A DNA stretch of 64,000 nt, from positions 186,001-250,000 of the forward strand of contig NZ_CP129968.2 of the NCBI RefSeq assembly GCF_030503875.2. Reading direction: 5' to 3'. Made by a program: the position numbers and the translations under genes. This document shows, one piece after another, positions 21,965 through 22,704 of the stretch. The DNA comes from Marivirga arenosa (GTDB lineage: Bacteria; Bacteroidota; Bacteroidia; Cytophagales; Cyclobacteriaceae). The notes beneath the pieces were generated by a model, which saw only the letters and a list, made by a program, of their open reading frames with translations, was not told the DNA's origin and did not search any database. Position 1 is the first letter of the stretch; the number at the start of each line of letters is the position of its first letter.

Positions 21965-22038
21965 TCCTCTTTAGCTCAGCTGGTTAGAGCATCTGACTGT
22001 TAATCAGAGGGTCCTTGGTTCGAGTCCAAGAAGAGGAG
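21965..22038 (+). tRNA. tRNA-Asn (GTT)
   Basis: A 74-base cloverleaf: acceptor TCCTCTT pairs with AAGAGGA, the D arm AGCTCAGCTGGTTAGAGC, anticodon loop CTGTTAA with GTT at 21999-22001, and T loop GGTTCGAGTCC. CCA is not encoded. An intrinsic terminator follows two bases later. The sequence from its anticodon arm onward is repeated about 390 bases downstream in a degenerate form. Confidence 0.97.
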
Positions 22039-22240
22039 CAAGCCTTACAGAAATGTAAGGCTTTTTTTATGCTCTTTTGTTTATATTAGACTATGAGCAC
22101 ATTTTTCGTTTACATCCTATTCTCTTCAAAAATCAATAAATTCTATATTGGTTATTCTCAAAATCCAGAAAAGAGACTAGAGTTTCATAATTCAACATTA
22201 AATAAAATTTGGTCAAAGAGAGGTCAACCCTGGGAGCTGA
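22008..22240 (+). repeat. Direct repeat, copy 1 (3' half of tRNA-Asn, terminator, start of GIY-YIG gene)
   Basis: From the 3' side of the anticodon arm onward this stretch is repeated at 22398-22630 with an offset of exactly 390 bases. Identity is near complete through the tRNA half and terminator and slowly falls in the GIY-YIG coding part; weak similarity continues to about 22310/22700. Confidence 0.9.
22040..22069 (+). terminator. Intrinsic terminator after tRNA-Asn
   Basis: AAGCCTTACA (22040-22049) pairs perfectly with TGTAAGGCTT (22054-22063) around GAAA, followed by seven T. An identical copy lies at 22430-22459 as part of the duplicated unit. Confidence 0.92.
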
Positions 22241-22356
22241 AAACGACAATTCCATTTAAATCAAAAACAGAAGCTCTAAAAGCTGAGCGAAAAATAAAAA
22301 AACTAAAAAGCAAAGCGATCATCAAAGACATTATTGAAAATGGGTGGAAGCATTAG
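22093..22356 (+). CDS. GIY-YIG domain protein (UPF0213/YhbQ-like)
   Basis: An 87-residue single-domain GIY-YIG protein: FVYILFSSKINKFYIGYS carries the strand-turn of the family (YIL...FYIGY), followed by RLEFHN and the E-containing helix EALKAERKIKKLKSK. Such proteins have a nuclease fold; many small bacterial members have no known target. The gene starts 24 bases after the tRNA-Asn terminator and lies in the unit that is duplicated. The downstream copy is a pseudogene. Role could be a minimal selfish or repair nuclease; not established. Confidence 0.85.
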   Translation: MSTFFVYILFSSKINKFYIGYSQNPEKRLEFHNSTLNKIWSKRGQPWELKTTIPFKSKTEALKAERKIKKLKSKAIIKDIIENGWKH

Positions 22357-22373
22357 CTTGTCTCCAAACTTGC

Positions 22374-22428
22374 GCATCTGATCCCGATTCATCGGGAAGG
22401 GTCCTTGGTTCGAGTCCAAGAAGAGGAG
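22374..22428 (+). pseudogene. Remnant of a second tRNA-Asn with altered anticodon arm
   Basis: GCATCTGA at 22374-22381 matches the tRNA-Asn anticodon 5' stem, and 22398-22428 matches its 3' end including the T arm and acceptor strand. The eleven bases in between that hold the anticodon loop are replaced by the 16-base inverted repeat TCCCGATTCATCGGGA (22382-22397), and the 5' half of the tRNA is missing, so it cannot be a functional tRNA. Confidence 0.85.
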
Positions 22429-22630
22429 CAAGCCTTACAGAAATGTAAGGCTTTTTTTATGCTCTTTTGTTTATATTAGACTATGAGCACATTTTTTGTT
22501 TATATCCTATTCTCTTCAAAAATTAATAAATTCCATATTGGTTATTCTCAAAACCCAGAAAAGAGACTAGAGTTTCATAATTCAACATTAAATAAAATTT
22601 GGTCAAAGAAAGGTTAGCCCAGAGGGCTTA
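22398..22630 (+). repeat. Direct repeat, copy 2 (tRNA remnant, terminator, GIY-YIG pseudogene)
   Basis: Second, decayed copy of the unit at 22008-22240. It includes a terminator copy at 22430-22459 and the start of a GIY-YIG frame at 22483. Confidence 0.9.
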
Positions 22631-22704
22631 AAACTTCAATTTCATTTGAATCAAATTCAAAAGCTTTAAAAACAGGTAGAATTATTAAAAACTTAGAGAG
22701 GTAA
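22483..22704 (+). pseudogene. GIY-YIG pseudogene
   Basis: The frame begins exactly like the intact gene (MSTFFVYILFSSKINK) but the family tyrosine is changed (FHIGYS in place of FYIGYS) and a TAG at 22615-22617 stops it after 44 codons, where the intact copy reads Gln. Degraded similarity continues to about 22700. Loss of function is clear from both the stop and the substitution. Confidence 0.88.

Follow-up and report, generated by a model that had tools for sequence, protein, structure and literature searches.

At the tRNA-Asn locus of Marivirga arenosa, a small GIY-YIG nuclease gene is flanked on one side by the intact tRNA gene and on the other by a broken copy of it. The locus lies in a window of 64,000 nucleotides (contig NZ_CP129968.2, positions 186,001 to 250,000, forward strand), and its features are collected in Table 1. 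The initial annotation had noted that the order of tRNA 3' part, terminator, and GIY-YIG gene occurs twice with an offset of 390 bases, and the direct repeat (22008-22307 versus 22398-22697) is indeed 90% identical. The palindrome that it had seen in the anticodon arm of the second tRNA is present as well. The 3' part of the broken tRNA is identical to 22008-22039 of the intact gene at 32 of 32 positions. However, the second copy is more than the 3' half that had been described, since it retains GCATCTGA (22374-22381), found before the anticodon loop of the intact gene, and a degraded stretch 5' of it that by reading aligns weakly with intact tRNA-Asn. The second GIY-YIG frame is dead, as annotated; residue 45 is an in-frame TAG, and the Glu found without exception in 17 rows of the family is missing. 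In the ORF list of the region the nuclease is the sole gene of the 390-base unit, and there is no integrase ORF inside the unit. A non-tRNA RNA family was considered for the broken copy and rejected, there being no Rfam match above the gathering score. The intact tRNA-Asn is the anchor of the element and its first homology copy.

Table 1. Features of the tRNA-Asn locus, in window coordinates.
Feature	Position	Strand	Support or description
Intact tRNA-Asn(GTT)	21965-22039	+	ARAGORN; Rfam RF00005, 70.4 bits
One 390-base unit	22008-22397	+	tRNA 3' part, terminator, GIY-YIG, pseudo-tRNA 5' part with palindrome
Terminator-like hairpin and T run, first copy	22040-22070	+	10-bp stem, 4-nt loop
GIY-YIG nuclease ORF1, intact, 87 aa	22093-22356	+	Pfam PF01541, 1.4e-13; family catalytic residues present
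Pseudo-tRNA-Asn	22357-22429	+	degraded 5' part, GCATCTGA, palindrome, identical 3' part 22398-22429
Palindrome TCCCGATTCATCGGGA, 16 bases	22382-22397	.	replaces anticodon loop and 3' anticodon strand
Terminator-like hairpin, second copy	22430-22460	+	
Dead second GIY-YIG copy	22483-22704	+	C-terminal part diverged

Nuclease genes and the tRNA genes beside them

Genes of this family are found beside tRNA genes in most of the loci. The first survey covered 59 genomes (M. arenosa and 58 relatives) with a single-protein search, and 32 had matches. The resulting locus set consists of 78 stretches from relatives (all listed places) and three loci of the M. arenosa genome, 81 in total. An ARAGORN tRNA on the same strand is found within 400 nt in 64 of these, upstream in 55 and only downstream in nine, and at none of the 81 loci is there a tRNA solely on the opposite strand within this distance. 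About 0.4% of random places would be expected to qualify (our own arithmetic, with approximately 33 tRNAs in 4 Mb). In at least one of the 64 loci (L131) the ARAGORN call is itself a broken copy. The remaining 17 loci have no ARAGORN tRNA within 400 nt, and seven of them begin no more than 250 nt from a contig end; the 17 comprise six with half tRNAs, three with a tRNA farther away or on the other side, one by a tmRNA, and seven with no tRNA piece. The isotypes at the loci include Asn, Asp, Met (three kinds), Val, Ala, Glu, His, Pro, Thr, Arg, Ser, Leu, and Lys. Two layouts are found. The first is intact tRNA, nuclease, and broken 3' copy, and the second is its mirror image, with a broken 5' copy, nuclease, and intact tRNA. 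The initial annotation had considered that an element of this kind would be unusual, but such genes are common in Bacteroidota, with matches in 161 of 247 genomes, M. arenosa included. Among the phylum-wide loci that were read, which were best matches only, 24 of 29 lie by a same-strand tRNA.

The M. arenosa genome (4.05 Mb) has further loci of this type. The single-protein search found five GIY-YIG genes, two of which are the window locus. The tRNA-Met locus has two genes in tandem (380 bases, 98%), and the tRNA-Val locus has one. A single-protein search misses members of the family, and the alignment search added GIY-YIG genes at tRNA-Leu in two congeners (G003 and G004) and a sixth M. arenosa gene (C1:984189-984425), recovered by alignment search only. 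Near this sixth gene there is no match among the tRNA matches listed for the genome. In the two congeners, the GIY-YIG frames are at a neighboring tRNA-Leu(UAA) locus on the other strand (L168 and L169), with profile E values of 9.4e-24 and 3.5e-23 in L169 and weaker ones in L168; M. arenosa has a plain tRNA-Leu at this locus.

Several single loci show other arrangements. In a Marivirga atlantica genome the tmRNA is followed, on the same strand and after about 230 bases, by a GIY-YIG gene (L139). In L134 the sequence around the GIY-YIG gene looks by eye like a broken recombinase gene, and ATTCACCCCGTAGGA flanks the GIY-YIG gene on either side. At two loci (L081 and L122) the tRNA before the nuclease gene starts only at about position 30, as if an integrating element had entered at the anticodon.

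The proteins consist mostly of the GIY-YIG domain alone. They are mostly 74-107 aa long, and most have no separate DNA-binding domain beyond the small nuclease domain. Six residues are invariant over 17 diverse rows: Y7, Y18, G20, R28, H32, and E65. The closest solved relatives by profile are the UPF0213 proteins BH0048 (1zg2, E 3.7e-17) and EF2693 (1ywl, E 1.6e-13), followed by SLX1 (7.8e-9), and the similarity extends over the GIY-YIG domain. SLX1 chains are longer (183-324 aa) than the proteins described here and are named as structure-specific endonucleases. To our knowledge neither UPF0213 nor SLX1 is linked to tRNA genes.

The lineages of the nuclease follow the isotype of the tRNA. A tree was made from 75 proteins, each locus being represented once, and 66 isotype labels were assigned to it from the nearest tRNA or tRNA piece. 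Isotype changes 22 times on this tree (the minimum possible is 14) versus 49.9 times with shuffled labels, and none of 200 shuffles is as low. On the same tree genome labels need 59 changes and genus labels 43. The five Ser genes form one clade (support 99/98). An alignment search of named genomes with the Val type gave 165 relatives, and the best 80 were examined, six of which were already in the first set; 78 of the 80 are labelled Bacteroidota and two are Pseudomonadota MAGs. Upstream of 64 genes among the best 80 of the 165 there is a tRNA at a distance of at most 500 nt, namely 57 tRNA-Val(UAC), five tRNA-Arg(UCU), one tRNA-Lys, and one tRNA-like call that is a broken copy. The other 16 of the best 80 have no tRNA in that interval, and six of these lie within 200 nt of the start of the stretch. 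The tRNA-Val cases span Cytophagales, Flavobacteriales, Chitinophagales, Sphingobacteriales, and Bacteroidales. The tie between lineage and isotype could be obtained by descent alone, and clustering of labels does not itself separate homing from descent.

Broken tRNA copies and their palindromes

A partial copy of the same tRNA lies beyond the nuclease gene in most of the loci. The test set combined the tRNA-linked loci of relatives with the Val-type set, without three double entries, and required at least 200 nt on the tested side (n=105). A match was a run of at least 14 bases beyond the gene that is identical to part of the same tRNA. Such a copy was found in 80 of the 105 loci and was absent from 25, while each of two controls, one with another isotype and one with the reverse complement, gave 5. 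By set the counts are 33 of 50 for class A, 39 of 45 for the Val set, and 8 of 10 for mirrored loci. Without the length filter and without removal of double entries, the copy is found in 88 of 117 loci. The layout exceeds chance, recurring at dozens of tRNA loci while the controls are low.

The broken copies often carry a palindrome. A palindrome with a stem of at least 6 within about 70 nt of the copy is found at 60 of the 88 copies, versus 2.7% in dinucleotide shuffles, and is absent at 28; one locus, without a palindrome, is entered twice in this count. The tRNA-Val copies have the most detailed record. Their arms were taken solely by the anchors AGCA and GGGTC, giving 49 distinct sequences. 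The palindrome in these copies is of the type TYCCGA...TCGGRA and is found at one position, with pairs 1-7 kept in 43 to 49 of the 49. Changes occur in pairs: pair 2 is C-G in 34 and T-A in 14, and pair 7 is C-G in 26 and T-A in 15. The core of the Val anticodon loop, TTAC, is retained in only six of the 49 arms, one of them an intact arm; one further sequence is unrelated. The outer bases (T[CT]CCG and CGG[GA]A) are conserved while the loop varies, as would be expected of either a symmetric site that is bound or a hairpin.

Similar copies are found at other tRNAs of M. arenosa, some of them without a nuclease gene. The intact tRNA-Met and tRNA-Val are preceded by palindrome-bearing broken copies as well. 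The tRNA-Arg(UCU) locus (L041, G000:C1:2098731-2099333) has one broken copy upstream and four downstream; the latter are spaced 119-120 bases apart, and each has a TCCCGA palindrome. The initiator tRNA-Met locus (L051) has three partial 3' copies downstream with a spacing of about 120 bases. The nuclease gene was matched in neither of these two loci, indicating that amplification needs no nuclease in cis. Among the loci of the survey, L131 has six more broken tRNA copies on the upstream side of its nuclease gene; they are mostly spaced 103 bases apart and have the palindrome TCCGCCTAGGCGGA, and the last of them is called tRNA-SeC by ARAGORN.

It is possible, if somewhat unlikely, that the palindromes belong to an independent hairpin element of the REP-like kind landing by chance in spare tRNA copies, with the nuclease as a bystander. 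The palindromes in the nuclease-free tRNA-Arg copies would agree with this, and so would two loci as they appear by eye: the broken tRNA-Asn of L074 contains a 30-base perfect palindrome that seems to be one palindrome nested in another, and in L121 a palindrome is cleanly inserted in the D arm. REP and REPIN palindromes, which go with RAYT transposases, are short palindromes in bacterial genomes. The palindromes described here differ in being few, as counted for the TCCCGA type, and largely confined to tRNA copies. The pattern TCCCGAN{2,14}TCGGGA has only 15 sites in 4.05 Mb (three for the reversed-pattern control), far below REP copy numbers, so that the high dispersed copy number of REP-like sequences was not found for this type. 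Eight of the 15 sites are within tRNA copies. The single position and paired changes in the tRNA-Val copies also argue against independent landing. Two of the 15 sites adjoin 5S rRNA, where TCCCGATCAATCGGGA lies directly upstream of the 5S gene at two places of the M. arenosa genome (L153 and L162). L153 is 23S and 5S rRNA by Rfam, and L162 reads as the reverse of the L153 sequence.

Empty sites, filled sites, and unit number

The tRNA-Asn site is empty in most of the congeners compared. The comparison included eight Marivirga congeners (G001-G008) and another genome of the same species (G302). Beside the same hsp20 gene, the site is empty in six of the eight congeners (G001, G003, G004, G005, G006, and G007), and no stretch of the tRNA longer than nine bases recurs in the 977-1000 nt downstream. 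A hairpin very similar to the terminator-like hairpin of the M. arenosa locus lies 3' of tRNA-Asn in these empty sites (L164-L169). The site is filled in G002, with three intact copies and a dead one, and in G008, with one copy and a remnant. The G008 gene belongs to a different clade from those of M. arenosa and G002, indicating that two distant lineages occupy one tRNA-Asn site. One loss in the six empty congeners and one separate acquisition would suffice for this pattern. The initial annotation had proposed comparing the tRNA-Asn flanks of close genomes and looking for units at other tRNA genes; the empty orthologous sites and the many units at many isotypes both favor an element.

The tRNA-Met site varies in the same way. 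Among ten genomes, including that of M. arenosa, it is filled in three (M. arenosa, G302, and G005), has a broken gene in G006, has only a tRNA-like scar (by eye) in G004, and is empty in G002 and G008. One genome is unreadable at this site and two are cut by contig ends; one of the latter, G001, has a gene beside tRNA-Met on another contig.

Unit number also changes, and decay affects the outer copies. The tRNA-Asn locus of G302 has one chimeric gene and is shorter than that of M. arenosa by exactly one 390-base unit; the crossover falls within the nuclease gene, at some point from offset 262 to offset 266. Contraction in G302 is likelier than the reverse because the tail of the chimera is that of the dead copy. 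At tRNA-Val, on the other hand, G302 has two units and M. arenosa has one. For another GIY-YIG gene of G302, at L315, the locus contains no tRNA. The placing of a decayed copy at the far end, which the initial annotation had pointed out in the window, is what is usually seen at loci whose copies differ. Among 21 loci with at least two copies (including L132, whose two genes flank the tRNA on either side), only the first copy is intact in 12, only the last in none, both in eight, and neither in one. The excess of decay in outer copies is consistent with the retention or addition of new copies beside the tRNA.

Plain tandem duplication, which the initial annotation offered as the simpler alternative, is unlikely to be the whole explanation. 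A resident GIY-YIG gene by tRNA-Asn would have been duplicated together with tRNA and terminator by unequal crossing-over, and one of the copies would then have decayed. The exact 390-base register, the difference of exactly one unit within the species with its crossover inside the gene, and the array units of relatives, which are identical in some cases, all agree with it, and recombination between units really does occur. However, it does not explain the presence of the gene at tRNAs in most loci, the tracking of isotype by lineages, the broken tRNA copy beyond the gene where there is only a single gene, or the conserved palindromes. Unequal crossing-over surely acts on arrays once they are present.

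A vertically inherited host family that is useful at tRNA genes, for instance in trimming or resolving tRNA-gene structures, and is patchily lost seems improbable, although several results are in its favor. The nuclease genes are under purifying selection: dN is well below dS in all nine pairs of separate loci tested (for example, dS 0.80 and dN 0.05), with one of the nine saturated for silent changes. Near-identical neighboring copies differ too little for a judgment; in one pair of this kind there are three replacements and not a single silent change. The low dN and the invariant catalytic residues count in favor of the proposed element as well. The Val site is syntenic, with a common upstream gene, in seven genomes including M. 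arenosa and its same-species genome (one at only 24% identity). Horizontal transfer of the Val-type gene within Marivirga was considered, as the tree sets the M. arenosa gene apart from those of closer congeners, but a single Marivirga clade is compatible with the data in an AU test on 34 of the Val-type rows (p 0.247), and therefore no transfer is claimed for this gene. A phage vehicle was rejected for the Val type, as a scan of viral contigs with the Val alignment gave 55 pattern-matched stretches, none of them a relative. Against a host family are the patchy presence, with empty, decayed, and scar-only states within one genus, and the two distant lineages at one tRNA-Asn site. The isotype switches within the Val clade (five Arg and one Lys of the 64, from the best 80 of 165) and the tandem arrays with dead outer copies also count against it.

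The locus shares one feature with integrated islands. Integrative elements at tRNA genes leave an intact tRNA and a partial copy, as is seen here, but the units described here have no integrase and one small gene, grow in tandem, and exist in mirrored versions. It is very improbable that the locus is what remains of a prophage or an integrase-type island at tRNA-Asn: the partial 3' copy is the classical footprint and the tRNAs beside the unit in L081 and L122, whose sequence starts at about position 30, would suit it, but the unit holds the nuclease gene only, the empty sites are tRNA and terminator with no island-like unit, and mirrored units with 5' tRNA parts exist. As to the minimal tRNA-targeting element put forward in the initial annotation, the empty sites and the recurrence support an element, while integration in the manner of a tRNA-targeting island does not agree with a unit that lacks an integrase ORF.

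A proposed homing-like element and its parallels

It is fairly probable that the unit is a minimal, isotype-locked GIY-YIG element at tRNAs that resembles homing endonucleases. Features in common with the latter are the GIY-YIG catalytic residues, occupied and empty versions of a site, and a lineage tied to its target gene. The family is termed homing-like and is not classed as a homing endonuclease because the separate DNA-binding domain is absent. The mechanism that we infer involves cleavage, transfer, and a role of the palindrome. The nuclease would cut either the cognate tRNA locus or the palindrome of the broken copy, the palindrome perhaps as a symmetric or cruciform substrate. A hairpin or cruciform is a reasonable guess because the nearest relatives are UPF0213 and SLX1, the latter structure-specific by its PDB name. 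Repair by homologous recombination through tRNA sequences would then copy the unit next to the tRNA. The new unit would push the older copy outward, where it would decay, and tandem arrays would result. Insertion would be harmless because the tRNA is regenerated, and the unit could be lost cleanly because it is flanked by direct repeats.

Some observations speak against such an element. The intact tRNA is kept whole, so that a target within the tRNA would still be cut. There is no DNA-binding domain, some family members are away from tRNAs, nuclease-free arrays exist, and the scan of viral contigs gave no relative of the Val type that could serve as a vehicle. Vertical inheritance with loss can also be reconciled with the AU test on the Marivirga Val-type genes and with the tRNA-Asn pattern.

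Endonuclease genes of fungal mitochondria offer a parallel in arrangement. They carry a duplicated 3' end of the gene entered, and as in the homing-like element proposed here the 3' end of the host gene is regenerated while the old end is left downstream of the nuclease gene. The fungal cases involve protein genes in mitochondria, in contrast to the tRNA genes described here, and we know of no conserved palindrome at those insertions.

In function, the nearest parallel is SegB of T-even phages. Tandem amplification of a segment with tRNA and segB has been reported, and a section heading of the same paper describes SegB as frequently tRNA-associated (PMC13096335). In another paper segB is listed between tRNA genes (PMC2988022). 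Homologues are found in phages of several phyla, including Bacteroidota (PMC13096335, PMC2988022). The likeness to SegB of phages T4 and T6 and to other free-standing GIY-YIG homing endonucleases is a GIY-YIG gene among tRNA genes. The genes described here differ in being chromosomal, mostly 74-107 aa, and without an extra DNA-binding domain; they lie between two copies of one tRNA, have palindromes, and occur at many isotypes across a phylum, with cleavage only presumed. In the accessible portion of a 2006 survey of GIY-YIG proteins there is no mention of Bacteroid or Cytophaga, and none of its three mentions of tRNA concerns tRNA genes adjoining GIY-YIG genes (PMC1564403). No description of tRNA-GIY-YIG arrays in Bacteroidota chromosomes was found in the literature covered, from which subscription papers and preprints were mostly absent. 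Such chromosomal arrays may therefore be new, while homing-like nucleases near tRNAs are already known from phages.

A wider form of the homing-like reading is put forward tentatively. These may be phylum-wide one-gene mobile elements of Bacteroidota that home into tRNA genes, with each lineage bound to one isotype and with the tRNA regenerated on entry. The conserved symmetric hairpin in the displaced copy would be the element's own site of cutting or joining, and the nuclease-free arrays would be non-autonomous derivatives. If the homing-like reading is right, these would be among the smallest cellular mobile elements, with about 390 bases and one gene, and they would explain the presence of broken tRNA copies and of small GIY-YIG genes for which annotation offers no reason. 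The isotypes, genera, and stages of decay are natural replicates for asking how a nuclease picks its tRNA. On this reading, a selfish nuclease would be living harmlessly in essential tRNA genes, always leaving one intact copy.
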